From Flavobacterium erciyesense (GTDB lineage Bacteria > Bacteroidota > Bacteroidia > Flavobacteriales > Flavobacteriaceae), in assembly GCF_018069925.1 (NCBI RefSeq), contig NZ_JAGPXB010000009.1, positions 1-64,000 on the forward strand: DNA of 64,000 nt, read 5' to 3'. Positions 1 through 55,064 of this stretch are shown in pieces. The translations under genes and the position numbers were made by a program. Each line of letters opens with the position of its first letter. Positions within the stretch are counted from its first letter, which is position 1. Under the pieces are notes generated by a model. It saw only the letters and a list, made by a program, of their open reading frames with translations. It did not search any database and was not told the DNA's origin.

Positions 1-1355
1 TGAGTATTGATGCAGACGGAAACGTAACAGTAGCTCCAAACACACCAAGCGGAACGTATACTTTAACGTATGAGATCTGTGAGGCAGGTGCTACCCCAGC
101 GAATTGTACAACAGCTGTTGCAACAGTGGTGATTAATAATCCAACAATTGTTGCAAATAACGATACCTTGCCAAGAACAGGAGGAAACGTATTAGGTAAC
201 GATACATTAAATGGTCAGCCAGTTCCTCCGGGAATGATTGCAGTGACACCAGCTACAAATGGTCCATTAAGTATTGATTCAGCAGGTAATGTCACTGTTG
301 CTCCAAATGCTCCTAGTGGTACTTATACAATTGTTTATCAATTATGTGAAGTTGGCGCTGTTCCAGCAAATTGTACTACAGCAATGGTGACCATTGTGAT
401 TTTTAATCCAATAGTTGCAGATAACAATGTATTCCCAGCTACTGGAGGTAATGTTACTGATAATGATACGTTAAACGGTCAACGTGTAACAGCAGCTACC
501 ACTGATGTGACTCCTGTAACAGATGGTCCGTTGAGTATTGATGCTGAAGGTAATTTAACAGTTGCTCCAAATACAGCTGCAGGTACATATACCATTAGAT
601 ATCAAATTTGTGAGACTGGTGCTGTACCAGCAAACTGTACCACTGCAACTGCAACAGTTGTAGTTCCAGAATCTCCTAAAATCTCAATCATTAAAACAGC
701 AGTGTTTAATGATGAAAATGGAGATGGTTTTGCTCAAGCAGGAGAAACTATTACTTACAGATTTGAAGTGACAAATTCAGGAAATGTTGTGTTGAATAAC
801 GTGGTTGTAACAGATAATCTACCAGGATTAATATTGACTGGTGCTCCAATTGCTGTTCTAAACATTAATGAAACCAATACTACTGCCTACCAAGGAGTAT
901 ACGCTTTAAAACAAAGTGATATTAATCTTGGTAGTGTCTCTAATCAAGCGCAAGTACGTGGAACTACGCCATTGGGAGTTGTTGTAACGGATCTTTCTGA
1001 TGATTCAAGTATGGTTGATGATCGTCCTACCGTATTAGGAGTTAATGGCTGTCAAATTGAAGTGTTCAATGCCGTGATTCCAAATGGTGCAGGTGACAAC
1101 AAAATATTTAGAATCAGAGGATTAGAATGTTATCAAGACAATAGAGTAGAAATATACAACCGTTGGGGTGTACTAGTATTTGAAAGAAACAGTTACAATA
1201 ATGATGATAGAGCCTTTAGAGGTATTTCAGAAGGAAGAGTAACTGTAAAACAATCTGAAGAACTGCCAGAAGGAACTTATTACTACATCTTGAAATACAA
1301 GGATAGTGCTGGTAATAATTTTGAAAAAGCAGGATACTTATACATCAATAGATAA
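1..1355 (+). CDS. Repeat-rich surface adhesin with T9SS type B C-terminal domain (5' end missing)
   Basis: The frame is open from base 3 at the left edge, so the true start lies outside the window. Visible are the end of one and two complete ~88-residue repeats, each with (G/D)NDTLNG, LSID..GN.TVAPN and a closing PANCTTA. A DUF11-like Ig domain follows (about residues 224-335 counted from base 3). The last ~100 residues form a gliding-motility/CHU_C type sorting domain (VEIYNRWGVLVFERN, then EGTYYYILKYKD), the type B signal for T9SS export and surface display. The gene is followed at 35 bases by a PorP/SprF gene, the usual partner of type B cargo such as SprB. The role is probably adhesion or gliding; the ligand cannot be told. 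The Ig repeats could vary in number between strains. Confidence 0.85.
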   Translation, partial: SIDADGNVTVAPNTPSGTYTLTYEICEAGATPANCTTAVATVVINNPTIVANNDTLPRTGGNVLGNDTLNGQPVPPGMIAVTPATNGPLSIDSAGNVTVAPNAPSGTYTIVYQLCEVGAVPANCTTAMVTIVIFNPIVADNNVFPATGGNVTDNDTLNGQRVTAATTDVTPVTDGPLSIDAEGNLTVAPNTAAGTYTIRYQICETGAVPANCTTATATVVVPESPKISIIKTAVFNDENGDGFAQAGETITYRFEVTNSGNVVLNNVVVTDNLPGLILTGAPIAVLNINETNTTAYQGVYALKQSDINLGSVSNQAQVRGTTPLGVVVTDLSDDSSMVDDRPTVLGVNGCQIEVFNAVIPNGAGDNKIFRIRGLECYQDNRVEIYNRWGVLVFERNSYNNDDRAFRGISEGRVTVKQSEELPEGTYYYILKYKDSAGNNFEKAGYLYINR

Positions 1356-45825: not shown

Positions 45826-46413
45826 TTATAATGTTAAACTTGCTACTACAGTATATTTGATTTCGATATTATAGGTGCCTGCTGGACATAAAGAGCTTGG
45901 TTTAATCCTAAATTGAATCGGTATATCTTTTCTACAGCCTATGAATTCCATAATTTTTACAGCTTGGGTAGCGTTGTTAGGGACTACAATGTAATTTCCG
46001 CCATTAGATGGCATTAAGTTTCTTTGACCTAAAGGTTTGATTAATAAAGTATCATAAATACTCACTGTTGGGAAACGTTGTCCGCTGTTTACAGTTGTTT
46101 TTGCTTCAATAGTTATGTTTGCTGGTGCATTAACTGAATTGATATAGACTTTATATCGATATACATTCTGTTCACAGAGAAGAGACGACGAGAGTAATAA
46201 TATTGGATCTAGTACAAAACCAATTTTAGTGGCGTCAAAATTACTTTCGAATCCTACTGAAGCGTCATCAACACCTGCCTCTACCACAACTGCATTAACT
46301 GATTGCGTAAAACTCGGCATTCCTGTAACATTCAAAGTTCCTGCCAAAATTTGGGCTTGTGAATAGCTAAACGATAGCAAGAACGATACTGTTATGATAA
46401 ATAAATTTTTCAT
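45826..46413 (-). CDS. Small secreted subunit, last gene of the pilus-like locus
   Basis: 195 residues from the ATG at 46413, which gives a clean signal peptide (MKNLFIITVSFLLSFSYSQAQ); a GTG start further upstream would run into the previous gene. The mature protein is all-beta by pattern, with four Cys-containing or neighbouring positions (LLCEQNVYRY, EFIGCRKD, SSLCPAG). It ends with LCPAGTYNIEIKYTVVASL, the G.Y...(I/V).YT pattern seen at the end of many fimbrial subunits. It lies 7 bases after the 46.4-kb gene, in the same transcript as the usher-like barrel. I infer a minor or tip subunit; an unrelated secreted beta protein remains possible. Confidence 0.65.
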   Translation of the reverse strand: MKNLFIITVSFLLSFSYSQAQILAGTLNVTGMPSFTQSVNAVVVEAGVDDASVGFESNFDATKIGFVLDPILLLSSSLLCEQNVYRYKVYINSVNAPANITIEAKTTVNSGQRFPTVSIYDTLLIKPLGQRNLMPSNGGNYIVVPNNATQAVKIMEFIGCRKDIPIQFRIKPSSLCPAGTYNIEIKYTVVASLTL

Positions 46414-46420
46414 TTTGGTT

Positions 46421-47008
46421 TTATTTAATTTCATAAATAATTTCAAATCCACTTGGTAATGATAGTCCACTTTGATTCTCTACAGTAATACGAAGATTGT
46501 AACCAGTGCCTAATCCATTTCCGGTGTAGCCGCTTGCAAAACTGTTAATCAAGATTTGTTCTGCAGAGCTTAAGGTAATTGGGCTGCTATTTTGATTAGG
46601 GATATATGACCCACCAATACTTGTTGCAGCAATGACTTGAATTTTTATCACAATCCCAGCAGGAACTATTTGGTTTGTGCGCACATAAATTTTAGCATTA
46701 GCAAAATTCACACCTCGATAGGTATAATTTAACCAAATGTTTTCATTTGTTGCAATTCCGCCAACACCAGTTGCGGGTAAACCTGCTTCTAAGGTAGTGC
46801 TGTTAAGACCAAAGCTAATAGTGTTGCTAGGGTCTGGCTCTGCATCAAGAATAGCAATGGGTTGAAGGCTCAAAGTCGCAAAGTTAGATTGTTGTCCACC
46901 TCCAAAAATGAAATTACTACTAATTGTAACATTCAATATTTCCTGAGCCCCGCAAACTGCGAAGCATAAGGTAAAAAGAGCCGCTAGTATATAGTCTGTA
47001 TTTTTCAT
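46421..47008 (-). CDS. Small secreted pilin-like subunit downstream of the usher-like gene
   Basis: 195 residues with a signal peptide (cleavage near CGAQE). The pattern follows the two abundant-type pilins at 52.5 and 53.4 kb: LQPIAILDAEPD against VPEIALIDIYD, ENIWLNYTYRG against TNLYLNYTSV, and SGYTGNGLGTGYNLRITVEN against ESVYTGDLARGVRLTYTLEQ. It ends GFEIIYEIK. The protein therefore probably shares their Ig-like fold. It starts 2 bases after the usher-like gene, so the two are translationally linked, as expected for a minor subunit needed in fixed ratio to its assembly platform (inference). Confidence 0.65.
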   Translation of the reverse strand: MKNTDYILAALFTLCFAVCGAQEILNVTISSNFIFGGGQQSNFATLSLQPIAILDAEPDPSNTISFGLNSTTLEAGLPATGVGGIATNENIWLNYTYRGVNFANAKIYVRTNQIVPAGIVIKIQVIAATSIGGSYIPNQNSSPITLSSAEQILINSFASGYTGNGLGTGYNLRITVENQSGLSLPSGFEIIYEIK

Positions 47009-47010
47009 AA

Positions 47011-50000
47011 TTACCCTCCTATTGTAAAGTTTTTACTTTTAAATTGTACTTTGCGTTCTTTGCCTTTTACAGGTACATTTATTGTAGTTTTTTCTCCTTC
47101 TTTTACAGTGATTTGAGTTTCTTTTTCAATTTCAAAAAACTCTTTTCCTTTGTAGCGCATAAGTTTTAATTTGTATGTTCCTGGAACGATATTTTGAAAT
47201 TTGAAAACTCCTTGCGCATTCGACTCTACGTTGTACGTGAAGTTCTCATTTTCAATTCTTAAATATCCTTCTAGATTATTACCGTTGGGTCTTGACAATT
47301 CCGGAAAAACAAGAGTTCCTATTATTGATGATGCACGTACAATTGTTATGTTTAATTCTGCTTTTTTATCCTTTTCTATAGTAACCTGAAATGGCGTTTT
47401 TGTAGCGGGAATTATTCCAAATGGAAGGGTAGACTCATCCATTAAAATGTAATTCTTTCCAAGAGGTAAGTTGTTTAACTCAAAAACTCCTTTAGCATTG
47501 GTTACAATACTTTTTCCAGCAGCTATGATTTTTATTCCTTTTACATCTATGCTTTTATCATTTACTTGAATTAAGCCATTTACTCCACCTTGCTCTAAAA
47601 TTCTTTTTATTGGAACTCCAAACGAATAGGTGTAGGTTCCAAAAGCTAATAGTTCCTTTCTATTGGTTACTCCGGGATTTTCAAAATAATTAGCACGGAT
47701 TTCAAATAAATGATTTTTAGCTAGATTAATCATTAACATTGCATTTATGAAATCACGTCTTAAGTAGAAGTCTTCTGGGCTGAAACCACTATTGTATGTA
47801 GCATTGAATCTAAAGTTTCTGTTGAAATTATAGTCAATCCCAACATTGTAAGTATAGAAGTTTTCATTTGCATTAATCTCATTATATCGATTGCTATAAT
47901 TGTGATTAAGACCGCTTCGAAGTGAAAAATGACTTGAAAACCGATAAGATGCATCTACAGTATGAGCATAAGTAGTTCTGTATTGCAGATCGTTACTTAA
48001 TAAATTTTGTGTTTCGGCTATTCTTCCGGTAAAGCCAAAAGCAAATGCTTTACCAGTGAAAATATATCTGTAGTCGATTCCAGATTCATTATAAAAATAA
48101 CTTTTGGGCTCAAGTTGATCCTCTCTTGTTCTCTTATCTACACGAATATCAAAATAGCTTTTAGGACTAAAACGGTATCCTATTCTTCCGTAATAGTTTT
48201 CAAAATAGGGTTCAGCAGCAAAAAACAACGGGTTTAAACGCTTATTTACTTTAGATACGGTTTGTCCGATAACAAAATCGAATTTTCTAAATTTATAGAA
48301 TAAGCTATTGTTGTACTCAATACTATTTCTGATGATTCCAAAGTAATTTTTACCTGAAAATGTAAAGCTCCCACTATAAGTCAAACCGTTCATTTTTTGG
48401 ACGAGGTTAAAGAAATGAGCCTGATCAACATGTTTGTTAGTAACGCTGAGTGAAGACTCTGCGTTGATAAACGTGTTTTTTGATCTTAGCTCAAAATTAG
48501 CAGTACCAATTTGACCTTTTTCGTCCAAGTTAGCTTCTATGTTTCTGTTGGCTCCCATAACAGTTCCTTTAGAGCTTTCTACTGCAAATCCTAATAGGGC
48601 GTTCTTATTAAAACGATAAACAGATTTAAAGCCAAATAGTGCTTCTGAATTAAAGCTGTACAATCTCGGTTTAGTAAAGAAAGCAGATAGTGTCCAATCA
48701 TTTATATTTTGATCAACTCTAAATCCCATTCCAAAGCGGCTATCAAAACCTAAGCGATTGATATAATAGGCGTGATCTCCTAAATACACAGTCGTGTTAT
48801 TATTGTATTTATAGATTAAACTATATTGATCTGTAATGCCGAAATTGATTAGATTTTTTTGTTGAGGTGCTCTAATGATTAAATTCAAGTAATTTTTTCT
48901 TTTCAAATCTAAAAACCCATCACCTAATAATTCCCCTGAAAGTGCTGAAAAATTCCTGTCTTGAAATGTATTACTAATATAGTTTACACTAAAGCGTACT
49001 GGATATCTAAAAAACGGATCTGCTTGTTTAAGTTTTGTAGGAAACACTTTTGTGCTGCCGTATGCTTTATATGACTTGCCAGAGGTTACACTCAGCGCAT
49101 TTAAAGAGGTTGTGATCGTAGTGAAATCATAATACTTTGCATCAGTTTTTTGTGTTATTTCAACTGTTGCCGTCATATTTGGACCTAGTTTAATCAATTT
49201 CGCTCCTTTAATGGTGTTTGTTGAGGATATCGAGATTTCTTGTTCTACATTACCTCTATTTTTAATTTCATATTTGGCCTCTATTATTTCTCCCGCTTGT
49301 ACTTTGCCAGAAGTGAACAAGTTGTACACCTCTAGGTCTAAGTTTGGTTCAATGTTAAAAACAACTTCTTTTGAGCCAATTTTACTTCCATTTAAATTTT
49401 TAACGATAAAAGTCGCAACAGTGTTTCCTGATGGATTGTCTACTGGTATATTGAAACTGATTAACACCATTTTCTTTTCATTAGCCTCCAAGACGCCAAT
49501 ATCACTTATTGAAATTAAGCTCCAATTGCGAGGTAATTCGGCTATAAGTTTTAAATTAGAGGTGCTGTTTTCGCCGTTTTCAATTTCGATAATTAACGTA
49601 TGGCTTTTATTTGTTGGATAACTTTCTTTAAGGTTTACGACACGAATTTTAATTTGTTCTATTCCTGAAGCATTTTGTTTTTTTTCTTTTGTTTCTACAA
49701 TTGTGGCAGTTGAAACTTTGATATTATCGGATGCGGATACACTTTTTTTATTGGTTTCAGAAGTTCCTTTAGCTAAATCTTCCTTTGAATTAGTAGTAGG
49801 AACAACTTTTTGTTTGTCTACGGTTTTAGTGCTATTAGTGTTTCCTATTTCTGGAACTATAGTGTTTTTAGTGTTTTGTTTTGTACTTGATTTATCATTC
49901 GCGATACTGTTGTTTTTTACAGTGTTTTGTTTTGATAAGCTTGATTTCAATCCGTTTGAAGTAGCAAGTTTTGCATTAACCGCTTTCGCTGGTGCTTTTA

Positions 50001-51372
50001 TTGATGAACTTGTAGCAGTATTTTTTACGGTATTTAATGCTAATTTTTTATTGTTTTGTTGTGACTGTGCCTCTTTTACAGCTGCAACTCCACCAGCATT
50101 AGTGGTGGTTTTTGCTACTGCCACAAGAGGAGTTTCATTTGAATTAGAGTTTGCTTGAGTTTTATCTTTTGCGAAAGCACGTTGCATTGCTTGCATCTCA
50201 TTTTTTGTAAACGATTTCACATCATTTTGTTTTTTGTTATCCGCAATAGGATTTTTAGTCCTGTTTGTTTCAGTAGCATTACTATTCGTTTTTGCTACTG
50301 CCACAGGAACAGTTTCATTTGAATCAGGGTTTGTTTGAGTTTTTTCTTTTGCGAAAGCACGTTGCATTACTTTTATTTCTTCTTTAGTAAACGATTTTAA
50401 ATCATTTTGTTTTTTGTTATAAGCAATAGTATTTTTAGTCCTGTTTGTTTCAGTAGCATTAGTGTTCGTTTTTGCTATTCCCATCGAGGTTGTTTCATTA
50501 GTACCTGAGTTTGTTTGAGTTTTTTCTTTTGAAAAAGCACGTTGCATTACTTGCATCTCATTTTTTGTAAACGATTTTACATCATTTTGTTTTTTGTTAT
50601 CCGCAATAGTATTTTTAGTCCTGTTTGTTTCGGTAGCATTAGTATTCGTTTTTGCTACTGCCACAGGAACAGTTTCATTTGAATCAGGGTTTGTTTGAGT
50701 TTTTTCTTTTGAGAAAGCACGTTGCATTTCTTGCATCTCATTTTTTGTAAACGATTTTACATCATTTTGTTTTTTGTTATCCGCAATAGTATTTTTAGTC
50801 CTGTTTGTTTCAGTAGCATTAGTGTTCGTTTTTGCTACTGCCACAGGAACAGTTTCAATTGAATCAGAGTTTGTTTGAGTTTTATCTTTTGAGAAAGTAC
50901 GTTGCATTACTTGCATCTCATTTTTTGTAAACGATTTTACATTAGTTTGTTTTTTGTTAAGCGCTGTAGCATTTTTAGTTGTGTTTGTTTCAGTAGTAGT
51001 AGTGTTCGTTTTTGCCAATTCAATAGCTTCGTTATCATTATCATCAGCGCTCTCTTGAGTTTTGACTTTTGAGAAAGCACGTTGCATTGCTTTTATTTCT
51101 TCTTCAGTAAACTTTTTTACATCGTTTTGGTGAGAAGCAGCAGCATTAGGTTCTTTTTCTATGATTTTTGATGTTAGTTCTGCATTTGATCTTTCACTTG
51201 CTTGTTTCTTATAGTAATTTGATGAGTCATTATCCTCATTTTGAATTGGTGTAGTTGTAGGTGTTGAAGTAGTACTCACACTTACTGTATCCAAATCTTC
51301 AGACTGCACTCCCATCCCACATCCTATGTAGAGAGGTAGAAGTAGATAGATAAGTTTATATACAGTTTTCAT
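47011..51372 (-). CDS. Usher-like outer-membrane barrel with N-terminal repeats, NEW3-like domains and two C-terminal Ig domains
   Basis: 1453 residues. The N-terminal signal ends in LPLYIGCG, a possible lipobox. Residues ~60-430 are six 60-residue low-complexity repeats (F.K.EM..MQRAF.K). A Ser/Thr/Lys-rich linker reaches ~570. Two NEW3-like Ig domains follow (about 577-675 and 676-780), then a long beta barrel (about 785-1254). Early in the barrel LGD is followed by FDSRFGMGFRVD, close to the LGD...FD..NFRG..L.SD pattern of FimD/Csu ushers. Two small Ig-like domains close the protein (about 1255-1345, with TNAKGVFELNNLPLGKNY, and 1346-1453), placed like usher CTD1 and CTD2. The chaperone-like gene is 38 bases upstream and pilin-like genes flank it. 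The usher assignment is an inference from motif and context; other barrel families are possible. Confidence 0.6.
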   Translation of the reverse strand: MKTVYKLIYLLLPLYIGCGMGVQSEDLDTVSVSTTSTPTTTPIQNEDNDSSNYYKKQASERSNAELTSKIIEKEPNAAASHQNDVKKFTEEEIKAMQRAFSKVKTQESADDNDNEAIELAKTNTTTTETNTTKNATALNKKQTNVKSFTKNEMQVMQRTFSKDKTQTNSDSIETVPVAVAKTNTNATETNRTKNTIADNKKQNDVKSFTKNEMQEMQRAFSKEKTQTNPDSNETVPVAVAKTNTNATETNRTKNTIADNKKQNDVKSFTKNEMQVMQRAFSKEKTQTNSGTNETTSMGIAKTNTNATETNRTKNTIAYNKKQNDLKSFTKEEIKVMQRAFAKEKTQTNPDSNETVPVAVAKTNSNATETNRTKNPIADNKKQNDVKSFTKNEMQAMQRAFAKDKTQANSNSNETPLVAVAKTTTNAGGVAAVKEAQSQQNNKKLALNTVKNTATSSSIKAPAKAVNAKLATSNGLKSSLSKQNTVKNNSIANDKSSTKQNTKNTIVPEIGNTNSTKTVDKQKVVPTTNSKEDLAKGTSETNKKSVSASDNIKVSTATIVETKEKKQNASGIEQIKIRVVNLKESYPTNKSHTLIIEIENGENSTSNLKLIAELPRNWSLISISDIGVLEANEKKMVLISFNIPVDNPSGNTVATFIVKNLNGSKIGSKEVVFNIEPNLDLEVYNLFTSGKVQAGEIIEAKYEIKNRGNVEQEISISSTNTIKGAKLIKLGPNMTATVEITQKTDAKYYDFTTITTSLNALSVTSGKSYKAYGSTKVFPTKLKQADPFFRYPVRFSVNYISNTFQDRNFSALSGELLGDGFLDLKRKNYLNLIIRAPQQKNLINFGITDQYSLIYKYNNNTTVYLGDHAYYINRLGFDSRFGMGFRVDQNINDWTLSAFFTKPRLYSFNSEALFGFKSVYRFNKNALLGFAVESSKGTVMGANRNIEANLDEKGQIGTANFELRSKNTFINAESSLSVTNKHVDQAHFFNLVQKMNGLTYSGSFTFSGKNYFGIIRNSIEYNNSLFYKFRKFDFVIGQTVSKVNKRLNPLFFAAEPYFENYYGRIGYRFSPKSYFDIRVDKRTREDQLEPKSYFYNESGIDYRYIFTGKAFAFGFTGRIAETQNLLSNDLQYRTTYAHTVDASYRFSSHFSLRSGLNHNYSNRYNEINANENFYTYNVGIDYNFNRNFRFNATYNSGFSPEDFYLRRDFINAMLMINLAKNHLFEIRANYFENPGVTNRKELLAFGTYTYSFGVPIKRILEQGGVNGLIQVNDKSIDVKGIKIIAAGKSIVTNAKGVFELNNLPLGKNYILMDESTLPFGIIPATKTPFQVTIEKDKKAELNITIVRASSIIGTLVFPELSRPNGNNLEGYLRIENENFTYNVESNAQGVFKFQNIVPGTYKLKLMRYKGKEFFEIEKETQITVKEGEKTTINVPVKGKERKVQFKSKNFTIGG
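50100..51130 (-). repeat. Six in-frame 180-bp tandem repeats in the usher-like gene
   Basis: The phrase GAAAGCACGTTGCATT (or close variants) recurs at about 50172, 50352, 50532, 50712, 50892 (GAAAGTACG) and 51072, exactly 180 bases apart. Each unit encodes 60 residues. The inner four copies are nearly identical, the outer two more diverged, so copy number has probably changed recently. Confidence 0.92.
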
Positions 51373-51410
51373 AGTAGTAGATTATAATTAATGAAGTGTG
51401 ACCCTAAACG

Positions 51411-52193
51411 TTAGTCTATAGCAAGACTAACGTTAGTTCCTATAAATTTTTCTCTCGAATCAGCGACCAAAAGACAGGTGTAATTTCCTTTAGGAAGTTC
51501 GGAAATGTTGATGGTGTAATCTTTGCAAAAGCCAGGGAATACTAAGCCTCTGATTGTTGTTTTTTGAAAGATGTTTTTTCCTTCTGAATCATAAATCTCT
51601 AAAGACAATTTTACGCCTTCGATAAATGAATTTTGATTAGCAATTTTAATTACTAAGTTTTTGCTATCTGTAGTTTTGTCAATGTCAACTTTTTGAAAAT
51701 CTAAGCTTACTTCATCAAGGCTATTTACATTTGTTATTAAGGCAATAGCATATCTCATTTTTGTATTCAGACCTATGTTGTGCTCAAGTTTTTCTTTTTT
51801 AATAGGTTTTTCTATGTCAATCATTAACATGTTCCAGAAGGTGCCTCTTAATGCTTGGTCTTTTGGGATGTTGATTGTGAATCTGTAACTATATTGTTCT
51901 TTTGGATTCAGTACCTTGTCCATTAAACTTCCATCAAACCAGTTTAAAGACGATTTTAAGTGGGATTGTGTAGTTGAAAAAGTACGGTCTCCTGTGCAAG
52001 AAAAAATGGCTTCGTGTAAACTAAAGGAAACTGTTTGCTGTTCATCTGAACTATTGAGTAGAATAACTTCGCCCTGGATTTGAGTGCCCGAGATTCCAGA
52101 ATATATATGTGTTAATCCGTTAGTTACAACAACGCTTGAGTAGGTCAAATTCACGAATAAAAATAATGCGATAATTAAGTATATTTTTTTCAT
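51411..52193 (-). CDS. Periplasmic two-domain Ig-like protein, candidate pilus chaperone
   Basis: 260 residues with a signal peptide (cleavage near NLTYSS). Two beta domains are visible. Domain 1 (about 22-130) contains GEVILLNSSDEQQTVSFSLHEAI, a loop NPKEQYSYRFTINIPKDQAL and RGTFWNMLMIDIEKP, which resembles the end of domain 1 in PapD/Csu-type chaperones. The linker LNTKMRYAIALIT sits where chaperones carry the R-I-x-V segment leading to domain 2 (about 140-260). The gene stands between the pilin-like genes and the usher-like barrel, the standard place for a chaperone. Identity to classical chaperones looks too low to be sure by eye, and a DUF916-like or other Ig protein is the main alternative. 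Confidence 0.6.
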   Translation of the reverse strand: MKKIYLIIALFLFVNLTYSSVVVTNGLTHIYSGISGTQIQGEVILLNSSDEQQTVSFSLHEAIFSCTGDRTFSTTQSHLKSSLNWFDGSLMDKVLNPKEQYSYRFTINIPKDQALRGTFWNMLMIDIEKPIKKEKLEHNIGLNTKMRYAIALITNVNSLDEVSLDFQKVDIDKTTDSKNLVIKIANQNSFIEGVKLSLEIYDSEGKNIFQKTTIRGLVFPGFCKDYTINISELPKGNYTCLLVADSREKFIGTNVSLAID

Positions 52194-52507
52194 TTTTACG
52201 TTTATTAGGGAAATAATTGGGATCAGGGTTTTTTACTATACAATAAAGTTACTATCTAAGTAGGGAAATTGATAGTGATTTTCGATGGCTAGCTCGTTAC
52301 TGCAGTTAAATGGTGTTATTTAGTCTTTGAACTATTTTGATAATTCAGTACGGTATTGATGTGGTCTATTTTTGATTAACGATGTCATATAAATAAGATT
52401 GCTAAGTTGCTGCTAAACGTGTTTTTAGAATCAATCCTAAAAAAGAAAGGTTCTATACACTGTGTAAAGAACCTTTCTTGGTAGATGGTAAAAATAAATG
52501 TAGTGCA
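52194..52507. other. Intergenic region between second pilin-like gene and chaperone-like gene
   Basis: 314 bases without a gene. It contains the strong terminator at 52443-52479 and about 250 further bases that should hold a separate promoter for the chaperone-usher transcript. I could not place a full TTG...TAnnTTTG pair on the minus strand. Confidence 0.55.
52443..52479 (-). terminator. Strong terminator after the second pilin-like gene
   Basis: AAGAAAGGTTCT (52443-52454) and AGAACCTTTCTT (52468-52479) form a 12-bp stem. The loop can extend it by TACAC/GTGTA. On the minus strand it is followed by TTTT. It sits 29 bases past the gene's stop codon and separates the abundant-subunit genes from the chaperone and usher. 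Confidence 0.9.
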
Positions 52508-53152
52508 TTAAATATCAGTCAAAGTATATTTAAGAGTTGCACTGTAATCTCCAGCACGGTACAATGCGAAGTTTCCGTTTTGTTCTAATGTGTAGGTTAG
52601 TCTTACACCTCTAGCCAAATCGCCAGTGTACACACTTTCAATGCTTGTTACTAATAGCGCATCTACACCAATTGCATTGGTTACTCCTAAACGTACTCCT
52701 GCAGCAGTTACTGTTCCAGCAGAATCGGTTGTACCTCCATTAGCAATAATTGAGGGAGCTACAGGTGTTATTCTTAAATCTAAGCTTGCTGGAAATGTAC
52801 TACCAGCTTCTAACTGAACATTGATTTGACGGGTTAAGTCGTATCCGCTTCCATTTGCTGCTGTAGCTACAACACTAGTGTAATTCAAGTACAAATTGGT
52901 GTAACTCAGGGCTGAAAACGCATACAATCCTGCTTCACGGTTGACACCAGATTGTGTAGCATTCGCCATGTTGAATACAACGGTTGCAGCTTCTGTTCCG
53001 GTATTACTGTCATAAATGTCTATCAGTGCAATTTCTGGTACGCTGACATTTAAGAGGTGTGTAGCAGTGTTTACATCAGTGTTGTCTTGAGCATTTGCGT
53101 TGCTAGCAAATAGAGCGGCAACGGCTACGAATAGTAGGTTAACATTTTTCAT
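52508..53152 (-). CDS. Pilin-like secreted protein, copy 2
   Basis: 214 residues from the ATG at 53152 (MKNVNLLFVAVAALFASNANAQ). A TTG-started longer form to 53185 is rejected because it would begin inside the -7 element at 53183-53190. The mature chain has an N-terminal alternating hydrophobic strand (HLLNVSVPEIALIDIYD), several beta segments and a C-terminal GDYSATLKYTLTDI, a pattern like the last strand of chaperone-usher pilins. There are no cysteines. It differs from the 53.4-kb copy at only about six mature positions. Its own terminator follows. Probably a major structural subunit; function is inferred from locus layout. Confidence 0.7.
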   Translation of the reverse strand: MKNVNLLFVAVAALFASNANAQDNTDVNTATHLLNVSVPEIALIDIYDSNTGTEAATVVFNMANATQSGVNREAGLYAFSALSYTNLYLNYTSVVATAANGSGYDLTRQINVQLEAGSTFPASLDLRITPVAPSIIANGGTTDSAGTVTAAGVRLGVTNAIGVDALLVTSIESVYTGDLARGVRLTYTLEQNGNFALYRAGDYSATLKYTLTDI

Positions 53153-53182
53153 ATTTTGGGTTTTTAGATTATTAATATATTT

Positions 53183-53190
53183 CAAAACTA
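53183..53190 (-). promoter_or_regulatory. -7 element for pilin-like copy 2
   Basis: Minus-strand TAGTTTTG matches TAnnTTTG and stands 30 bases upstream of the ATG at 53152. A -33 TTG was not found at usual spacing. Confidence 0.5.
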
Positions 53191-53358
53191 CGACCTAAGA
53201 TCGTTGCAGAGTTTGGTTTTTCGTTAGACTGCATTGAAGTATAGACCAATAAAAGCTTTTAAAAGTCTTTCTGTAAATGATGCTGCCTTGTTTTGCTGGT
53301 AAAAATTAATATTTCTTCTTACATCTGTGACTGCTAAGTCAGCATGTTTATAACCCAA

Positions 53359-53389
53359 AAAGGTTCTATACAGTGTGTAAAGAACCTTT
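53359..53389 (-). terminator. Terminator after the first pilin-like gene
   Basis: AAAGGTTCT (53359-53367) and AGAACCTTT (53381-53389) form a 9-bp stem followed on the minus strand by TTTTT-type bases. It is a diverged duplicate of the 52443-52479 terminator, so the duplication unit included the terminator. Confidence 0.85.
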
Positions 53390-53419
53390 CTTGGTAATGG
53401 CAAAATTAAATGTAGTGCA

Positions 53420-54064
53420 TTAAATATCAGTCAAAGTATATTTGATAGTTGCACTGTAATCTCCAGCACGGTACAATGCGAAGTTTCCATTTTGTTCTAA
53501 TGTGTATGTTAATCTTACACCTCTAGCCATATCTCCAGTGTACACACTTTCAATACTTGTTACTAATAGCGCATCAACACCAATTGCATTGGTCACTCCT
53601 AGAGCTACACCTGCAGCAGTTACTGTTCCAGCAGAATCGGTTGTACCCCCATTAGCAATAATTGAAGGAGCAACAGGTGTTATTCTTAAATCTAAACTCG
53701 CTGGAAATGTACTACCTGCTTCTAACTGAACATTGATCTGACGGGTTAAGTCGTATCCGCTTCCATTTGTTGCTGTAGCTACAACACTTGTGTAATTCAA
53801 GTACAAATTGGTGTAACTCAAGGCTGAAAACGCATACAAACCTGCTTCACGGTTAACACCAGATTGTGTAGCATTCGCCATGTTGAATACAACGGTTGCA
53901 GCTTCTGTTCCGGTATTATTGTCATAAATGTCTATCAGTGCAATTTCTGGTACGCTCACATTTAAGAGGTGTGTAGCAACGTTTACATCAGTGTTGTCTT
54001 GAGCATTTACTTGTGTTGCAAATAATCCAGCAACACTTAATAATAGTAGATTAAAATTTTTCAT
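53420..54064 (-). CDS. Pilin-like secreted protein, copy 1
   Basis: 214 residues with a signal peptide ending near QVNAQ. The mature part is nearly identical to copy 2 (changes such as NTATH/NVATH, DSN/DNN, TAAN/TATN, RLGV/ALGV, DLARG/DMARG, ATLKY/ATIKY), while the signal peptides differ more. It has the same N-terminal hydrophobic strand and C-terminal GDYSATIKYTLTDI. It is the first gene of the locus and has its own promoter (54093-54100) and terminator. The high copy identity and separate transcription units suggest an abundant subunit. Confidence 0.7.
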   Translation of the reverse strand: MKNFNLLLLSVAGLFATQVNAQDNTDVNVATHLLNVSVPEIALIDIYDNNTGTEAATVVFNMANATQSGVNREAGLYAFSALSYTNLYLNYTSVVATATNGSGYDLTRQINVQLEAGSTFPASLDLRITPVAPSIIANGGTTDSAGTVTAAGVALGVTNAIGVDALLVTSIESVYTGDMARGVRLTYTLEQNGNFALYRAGDYSATIKYTLTDI

Positions 54065-54362: not shown

Positions 54363-55064
54363 ATGCGTTTCACTATCCTTGGTTTTTTGCTTTTGTCGTT
54401 TTGTAAACTGTATTCGCAGGCTGATGTCGTGGCAGCAGATAGTCTCGTTGTTAAAGTAGATTCTTTATACCGTGAGGATCAATTTTATTTTAGCTTGACT
54501 TATAATACGCTTTCTAAAAAACCAAATGGGGTGAGTCAAAGTAAATTTTCATCTGGAATTTCTTTTGGTTTTTTGCGTGATATGCCCATTTCAAAAAAAA
54601 GACAAATAGCTGTTGCGACAGGTTTGGGTTTTACTTATAACAATTACAATCAAAATTTAGCCATATCAGGCAGTGCACAAAATCCATCTTATGAAGTTAT
54701 TGGTGCAAACACAGCTTTTGATAAAAATAAAATTTCGACTTTAACCATTGATGTGCCTTTAGAGTTCAGATGGCGTACTTCAACGTACGAAAGTCATAAG
54801 TTTTGGCGCATTTACAGCGGATTAAAATTTAGTTATTTACTGCTGGATAACGCTATTTTTAATGGAGCTACGGGTGATACTAAAATTTCTGGTAATAAAG
54901 ATTTTAACAAACTACAGTACGGAGCGTACTTAAGCGCCGGTTACAATACGATCAACTTGTACGTTTATTATGGTTTGAATCCTTTGTTGGAGGCGCAAAC
55001 CACAACAGCAGAATCTTTTGCATTACAGGCTCTCAATTTTGGAGTCATTTTTTATATTTTATAG
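54363..55064 (+). CDS. Outer-membrane beta-barrel protein (porin/PorT-like)
   Basis: 233 residues with a signal peptide (cleavage near CKLYSQAD). Amphipathic strands with aromatic girdle residues run through the chain (QFYFSLTYNTL, QIAVATGLGFTYNNYNQNL, FWRIYSGLKFSYLLL), and the protein ends LNFGVIFYIL. About 8-10 strands would fit. The resemblance to PorT-family proteins is in general pattern only, so a T9SS role is not claimed. The last 6 bases overlap the stop region of the convergent membrane-protein gene. Confidence 0.75.
   Translation: MRFTILGFLLLSFCKLYSQADVVAADSLVVKVDSLYREDQFYFSLTYNTLSKKPNGVSQSKFSSGISFGFLRDMPISKKRQIAVATGLGFTYNNYNQNLAISGSAQNPSYEVIGANTAFDKNKISTLTIDVPLEFRWRTSTYESHKFWRIYSGLKFSYLLLDNAIFNGATGDTKISGNKDFNKLQYGAYLSAGYNTINLYVYYGLNPLLEAQTTTAESFALQALNFGVIFYIL

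Follow-up and report, generated by a model that had tools for sequence, protein, structure and literature searches.

The question raised by the six genes at positions 45826-54064 of the analysed DNA, a stretch of 64,000 nucleotides from Flavobacterium erciyesense (contig NZ_JAGPXB010000009.1, here called the window), is whether a member of the Bacteroidota carries a fibre-forming system of the chaperone-usher type. An initial annotation had proposed a divergent branch of these systems, composed of pilin-like subunits, a protein of two immunoglobulin-like (Ig) domains as the chaperone and a large outer-membrane barrel as the usher. The data make it probable that the operon encodes a divergent Bacteroidota version of the chaperone-usher fibre systems, with a barrel that is devoid of a plug. 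The proposal stood in outline; the plug was not found and the call of the chaperone is indirect.

All six open reading frames (ORFs) were confirmed on the minus strand and, as annotated, each begins with a signal-peptide-like segment (read by eye). The operon opens with a major pilin-like subunit of 214 amino acids (aa; 53420..54064) and a second, near-identical major pilin (52508..53185; 93% protein identity), followed by a two-Ig-domain periplasmic protein, the putative chaperone (51411..52193), an outer-membrane barrel protein of 1453 aa, the putative plug-less usher (47011..51372), a second type of pilin whose gene immediately follows that of the barrel (46421..47008) and a last small subunit (45826..46470). 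The two major pilin genes are identical in 598 of 645 aligned bases (within 52508-54064) and, judged from their sequences, are a tandem duplication. The listed starts of 52508-53185 (TTG) and 45826-46470 (GTG) are probably too early, internal ATGs preceding the signal peptide; in the former the ATG 11 codons inside is probably the true start. A Pfam scan of the window proteins found no chaperone, usher or pilin family, and an NCBIfam scan gave nothing above cut-off. The reading of single-sequence Pfam matches was dropped, the best ones being below the cut-offs except for fn3_3 in the C-terminal part of the barrel protein and PF13568 in a neighbouring gene.

A two-motif scan of GTDB contigs for the Ig protein revealed 117 relatives. 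The 80 best loci were retained (these and further loci carry L numbers below), and their ORFs were scored with profiles built from four starting operons. The Ig and barrel proteins occurred together in 77 of the 80 loci, and in the three barrel-less ones (L010, L033 and L052) the contig runs out within the Ig gene or shortly behind it. As loci fetched via the Ig protein also hold the barrel in 77 of 80 cases, the operon is more than a chance arrangement. The exact order pilin-Ig-barrel-pilin-small was observed in 48 loci, in support of the proposed operon; variants carry additional pilins on either side of the core, and L011 and L014 have a pilin between the Ig and barrel genes (these counts omit minus-strand small-subunit profile matches in L016, L028, L029 and L034). 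The Ig gene adjoins the barrel gene in 75 loci, overlapping it in 44 (median gap -8), and a pilin gene adjoins the barrel gene in 73 of the 77 barrel-holding loci, overlapping it in 57 (median gap -4); the median gap between the pilin and the small gene is +1 (72 pairs). The second pilin is missing in four of the 77 barrel loci: L030 and L031 end at a contig edge, while the two Owenweeksia loci, L035 and L050, seem to be genuine exceptions. The alignments used below comprised the window protein and filtered subsets of relatives (38 of 82 Ig proteins, 41 of 79 barrels, 34 of 99 major pilins, 30 of 75 second pilins and 34 of 74 last subunits), with L009 and L010 excluded as near copies of the window.

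The AlphaFold2 model of the barrel protein, based on 42 aligned sequences (predicted local distance difference test score, pLDDT, 87.1; predicted template modelling score 0.65), contains two N-terminal Ig-like domains (model residues 8-211; 49042..49653), 26 barrel strands (221-691; 47602..49014) and two small C-terminal beta domains (715-871; 47062..47532) of the CarboxypepD_reg/SpaA type at the positions of the usher C-terminal domains CTD1 and CTD2. In Foldseek, ranks 1-6 were FimD/PapC complexes (E 2.4e-16 to 7.4e-13), the best being 3rfz_E (E 2.4e-16, 903 columns); the next other protein scored 2.6e-11, and Ig-rich ciliary proteins, porins and receptors followed. The template modelling scores of the six matches were low (0.25-0.37), as expected if the positions of the domains differ. 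The motif LGD...FDSRFGMGFRVD noted in the initial annotation was present in strands 5 and 6 (48712..48783, minus strand), placed like the GD...FRG region of ushers, and a related pattern, GD-x(10,18)-R-[FYWLVI]-G-x-G, occurred in 28 of the 42 aligned barrels. CarboxypepD_reg was detected in 42/42 members; against PDB sequences, the C-terminal domains of the barrel profile matched NOMO2 (7.9e-19) and cellulosomal scaffoldins, and the Ig part matched weakly.

The connection of this barrel to ushers was built with hhalign, whose P-values apply to one pair and not to a database, from profiles of the window family (n = 42), intermediate barrels (BARmid, n = 6), distant barrels (BARdist, n = 7) and E. 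coli ushers (n = 7). The window family matched the intermediate set at P 1e-30 (807 columns), the intermediate set matched the distant one at 1.6e-49 (755 columns), and the distant set matched the seven ushers of E. coli at 7.3e-7, with 22% identity across 216 columns (reversed control 0.037), in an alignment crossing the GD...FRG motif and covering barrel and usher plug. Homology to ushers was reached in this stepwise manner, through intermediates. With these full profiles, the intermediate set reached the ushers at 1.9e-4 over 83 columns. When the comparison was confined to the barrel parts, the three steps gave 1.3e-9, 4.1e-23 and 6.1e-6, and their reversed controls 0.11, 0.47 and 0.035. 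Shuffled controls scored at most 22.8 versus 68; the last link persisted at 3e-7 to 2.3e-6 in 7/7 leave-one-out runs and at 6.6e-7 with 32 members. The usher link rests on profiles because single distant barrels for the most part showed no significant match to the ushers of E. coli (6/7 below 3%, the seventh 34%); the four control ORFs beside that comparison are single sequences and thus weak controls.

The Pfam Usher family (PF00577) matched neither the window protein nor anything in the source genome, and of 395 genomes of Bacteroidota, 4 showed weak matches that all stayed under the cut-off; the E. coli control was positive in both scans. All four matching ORFs (994-1505 aa) directly adjoin an Ig relative, and subunits found with a DUF4402 profile lie near three of them; at the fourth (L167), the contig begins just before the Ig gene. 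These four and similar barrels make up the distant set used above. A plug-like sequence follows the GD motif in L164, L166 and L167, whereas in the window family the barrel goes on at once. The distant barrel was present in 59 of 92 genomes of one family, and among the 30 such loci listed, 29 have an Ig relative in the flanking 1.5 kb. The C-terminal part of six distant barrels (L119, L120, L126, L164, L165 and L167) bears a SPOR domain, a type known for peptidoglycan binding and unusual on an usher-like protein.

The Ig protein had been annotated as a chaperone of the PapD/CsuC type; its nearest known relative turned out to be the Gram-positive WxLIP. In Pfam, the window protein matched each of the two WxLIP domains below the cut-offs (2.5e-4 and 1.5e-3), and the profile of 39 Ig members searched against all PDB sequences gave EfmWxLIP1 (two entries) as the sole significant match (E 1.2e-10, positions 37-252). 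WxLIP_HBD and WxLIP_PGBD were each detected in 17/39 members at E <=1 (best 2.9e-12 and 1.2e-6), so that the Ig family carries the DUF916-DUF3324 (WxLIP) domain pair, the single window protein staying under the Pfam cut-offs. In hhalign with signal peptides removed, the family matched seven Gram-positive WxLIPs at P 4e-12, and ten distant Ig relatives (L119-L128) matched the window family at 4e-33 and WxLIP at 2e-13. Two residues located where the domains meet, R147 and Y148, are invariant in 39/39 members; as a guess, they could be the counterpart of the basic anchor of PapD. In a published study, AlphaFold2 puts a strand of WxLIP into WxL (PMC10599100); by analogy, such an insertion is the contact type of a strand-donating chaperone.

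The structural comparison is in keeping with subunits that are donor-strand-like pilins. The AlphaFold2 model of the major pilin (pLDDT 83.7, 73 sequences) was compared in VIA with rows preselected by Foldseek, and 48/50 were titled pilins, fimbrial adhesins, cannulae, threads, bundling pili or complexes. The titles of the two best rows, TLP-1b (7.5) and TLP-1a (7.1), were uninformative, and TLP-1 was not found in the literature among the matches listed. CfaB, which also filled the first three Foldseek rows (0.019 to 0.029), reached Z 6.9, with model residues 42..213 aligned on CfaB 13..147. As CfaB residue 13 falls on model residue 42, residues 23-41 form an N-terminal extension, whose stretch 23-40 (53945..53998, minus strand) is a putative donor strand. 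Its hydrophobic alternation is near-perfect in 35 pilins: V, I, L, M or F occupies positions 34, 36 and 38 in 100, 97 and 100% and positions 33, 35 and 37 in 14% each, and no strand is assigned to it in the monomer model. Strand A starts 15 residues from the signal Q in 24/35 pilins, and the C-terminus lies 5 residues past an invariant Tyr in 27/35, a fixed end, as would be expected of a terminus bound by a partner. Of the G.Y.A..KYTLT ending attributed to the subunits, both major pilins carry a good and the last gene a loose version, and 46421-47008 ends otherwise.

The last subunit differs at its N-terminus. The distance from the signal Q to a conserved AG motif has a median of 19 residues (16-24; 35/35), as compared with 38 (35/35) and 35 (28/31) in the two pilin types; a cruder count gave 18, 37 and 35 with some outliers, and the profile alignment of the last subunit with the pilin starts at 19 onto 38 (P 1.7e-4). 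Such a short N-terminus fits, by sequence, a tip or first subunit that would accept a strand and give none.

Several results weigh against the chaperone-usher reading, beginning with the barrel. The barrel of ushers has 24 strands, and the plug sits between the sixth and the seventh. In the model of the window protein there are 26 strands, no inter-strand gap exceeds 16 residues, hence no plug, and strands 6 (315-324) and 7 (327-336) are linked by 2 residues. In VIA (rows covering 221-685), the barrel of the Mtr complex came first (Z 19.8, 419 aligned), above PapC (16.3) and FimD (15.7), the latter tied with LptD (15.7); porins such as OccK3 scored 15.6 or less with a root-mean-square deviation of about 9 versus 5-6. 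Taken by itself, the modelled fold says large barrel with an usher-like domain plan. The direct comparison of the window family with E. coli ushers was not significant (0.016), nor were the barrel-part shortcuts from the window family to the distant set (0.027) and from the intermediate set to the ushers (0.13), and a whole-protein Pfam scan listed Usher for two of the four Usher-like ORFs. At the N-terminus of the barrel protein, two Ig-like domains stand in place of the usher N-terminal domain (NTD); they gave no profile match (P 0.013, 3%) with the NTDs of E. coli ushers, nor did the C-terminal domains with the CTDs. Of the annotated likeness to FimD/CsuD, the domain plan was upheld, and the profile chain leads to ushers; the plug, a strand number of 24 and the NTD were not found. 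A barrel without plug, usher NTD or direct sequence match to ushers is what independent convergence would give, that is, a Bacteroidota-specific large-barrel secretion device with Ig-like cargo, similar to ushers in architecture only. We regard this as quite unlikely, since the plug-like stretch of the distant barrels aligns to FimD with 22% identity, with Ig relatives alongside, and every step of the chain stands with the barrel parts alone.

For the Ig protein, the family showed no direct hhalign match to eleven E. coli chaperones of the PapD family (P 0.14). The ten distant relatives matched these chaperones at 9.7e-10, with an Ig control, the barrel N-terminus, at 3e-7; when the distant members were split into two sets, one of them enlarged by four further Ig members (L164-L167), the values of 1.2e-7 and 6.9e-5 were no better than the controls (1.7e-7 and 1.2e-4). 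PapD_N of Pfam appeared at 0.015 in L119 and 0.014 in L167. Because the WxLIP match is strong, the direct PapD comparison gave 0.14 and the split sets equalled the control, the kinship with WxLIP is firm at the level of sequence and that with PapD suggestive only. This opens the alternative of a diderm WxL-like surface complex, in which the Ig protein would be an adaptor holding the small beta proteins and the barrel a general 26-strand exporter or porin on which single subunits are displayed, with no fibre formed; the WxLIP matches favour it, as do the first place of the Mtr complex barrel in VIA and the porins scoring close to ushers. It is nevertheless unlikely: a PF13731 (WxL) scan of the source genome found none while the control matched, the pilins had no profile match to WxL, the barrel chain reaches ushers, and an N-terminal extension is present on two subunit types and absent on the third.

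For the pilins, Foldseek gave no match of the major pilin model at E 0.001, and the VIA Z-scores, at most 7.5, are modest and in the tool's 'common' range. The mature pilins matched none of the E. coli pilin, WxL and DUF4402 profiles. In a first hhalign run, DUF4402 (80%) and E. coli pilins (54%) had seemed to be homologues; both signals vanished with mature sequences and were therefore a signal-peptide artefact, and the link between the last subunit and the pilin fell from 94% to 49%. Homology to WxL was likewise rejected (P 0.33), the WxL set consisting of seven of nine sequences (one dropped as not WxL, one as cut at a locus end), two of them annotated only as hypothetical and chosen by eye. 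Weak Pfam matches of the window Ig protein below the cut-offs, to Mfa2 (7.4e-4), CHU_C (5.9e-4) and Por_Secre_tail (1.1e-3), would suit a type V (FimA/Mfa) pilus or cargo of type IX secretion. The chance of this is very slim, as they recur in only 2, 2 and 4 of 39 Ig members, the operon has a dedicated barrel, and lipobox-like motifs (own regular expression) are rare or nil: 0/82 Ig proteins, 3/99 major pilins, 0/75 second pilins and 6/74 last subunits. FimA/Mfa-type Pfam families gave no match in the pilins. Among the observations that the initial annotation had named as speaking against it, the missing plug and an Ig family not named as chaperone were thus partly encountered; the strand count and the pilins came out in its favour.

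The chaperone-usher-type reading suggests how the products could work together. The subunits would be exported across the inner membrane via Sec, and the two-Ig protein would lend a strand, holding each of them in the periplasm. The complex would dock on the periplasmic face of the barrel, whose pair of Ig domains at the N-terminus and pair of beta domains at the C-terminus may stand in for the usher NTD and CTDs. The N-terminal strand of the next subunit would displace the chaperone, and the fibre would extend outward. The last small subunit, having no donor strand, would enter first and become the tip; the shaft would be built from the two near-identical pilins, and the second pilin type, encoded downstream of the barrel, may be an adaptor or terminator. 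As the barrel is without a plug, the resting pore would be closed in another manner, perhaps, as a guess, by the N-terminal Ig domains.

Set beside known chaperone-usher systems (FimC/FimD type 1, PapD/PapC, CFA/I and the archaic Csu), the operon shares a two-Ig protein and a large barrel in one operon, the two C-terminal beta domains of the barrel, the alternating N-terminal extension of the subunits and FimD/PapC as top Foldseek matches of the barrel. It differs in the plug-less barrel of 26 strands, in the two Ig domains replacing the usher NTD, in window proteins without Pfam Usher or PapD matches and in the Bacteroidota host. With WxLIP (DUF916-DUF3324, Gram-positive WxL clusters), the Ig protein shares two tandem Ig-like domains, the match being significant over most of its length; it lacks a WxL partner, and an outer-membrane barrel is encoded in its operon. 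We know of no barrel partner of TasA/TapA and archaeal donor-strand filaments, which are not outer-membrane systems; the VIA rows obtained with the pilin model do include threads and bundling pili. Chaperone-like strand donation has been described for TapA (PMC10151520). WxLIP has a C-terminal transmembrane helix (PMC10599100), and no such helix is present in the window Ig protein, whose ORF stops after domain 2 (sequence reading). The six SPOR-barrel loci resemble the window in having an Ig relative beside a large, profile-linked barrel, and distant barrel loci differ from it by the retained plug-like region (L164, L166 and L167), by the SPOR domain and by DUF4402 subunits (Pfam in L119, L120 and L126; own profile in L164-L166).

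The titles of the 80 loci name Bacteroidota in 78 cases, with L053 being a 'Chlorobiota' metagenome-assembled genome, and record titles place the operon in numerous genera from the environment as well as in Chryseobacterium and Elizabethkingia. With the source genome counted each time, a single-sequence search detected the Ig protein in 4/60 genomes, the first Ig profile matched 37/395 Bacteroidota genomes, and the barrel profile at E 1e-20 matched at least 16/395, a lower bound with two candidates scored per genome. Within the genus Flavobacterium, the Ig profile matched 35/299 genomes: six have the window type (E <1e-80), 26 a divergent type (1e-11 to 1e-25), and three gave short matches in frames of 961-979 aa, which may not be Ig proteins. 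In L124 (8487-15617), five similar pilin-type genes surround one divergent operon, four of them alike at both ends, as if, judging by sequence, the pilin copies had multiplied.

The window barrel protein additionally carries a low-complexity N-terminal part of about 566 aa (49675..51372) with a 180-bp tandem repeat in 5.8 copies (50095-51129). This part is absent from three relatives compared and present in F. turcicum (L009), where a similar array has 4-4.7 copies, so the copy number varies. Uncut barrels measure 890-942 aa except for L009 (1388, with the repeat), L054 (1006) and L060 (749). The barrel frame of L060 (9779-12028) compares with 891 aa in the close relative L056, and the gene may be broken. 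Beside the operon, a divergently transcribed gene at 54363-55064 encodes a small outer-membrane barrel (PF13568, 1.1e-19).

The annotated possibility that the system is undescribed agrees with the literature covered: among the matches listed, the titles and abstract starts of open-licence PubMed Central papers, subscription papers being outside this scope, held no chaperone-usher system of Bacteroidota or flavobacteria. No paper on DUF4402 was found in the open-licence PubMed Central literature. In the portions of the sources available, archaic chaperone-usher pili are assigned to Proteobacteria, Cyanobacteria and Deinococcus-Thermus (PMC4654587), a review speaks of type V for the pili of Bacteroidetes (PMC8551831), and a survey omitted chaperone-usher systems (PMC4793230).

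The operon looks like an unrecognised relative of the E. coli chaperone-usher machine. It is a real conserved gene system, most likely a divergent plug-less chaperone-usher branch with a WxLIP-like chaperone, from whose composition we infer the function. A plug-less usher would test the purpose of the plug, and a chaperone standing between PapD and WxLIP would hint at the function of WxLIP. It is a possible, still doubtful, extension that the Bacteroidota have a chaperone-usher lineage of their own, one branch of which has lost the usher plug, and that the tie of PapD to WxLIP goes back to a common strand-donating ancestor predating the envelope split. If true, the chaperone-usher pilus would share with the WxL-WxLIP pair its descent from one chaperone older than the split between the envelope types.

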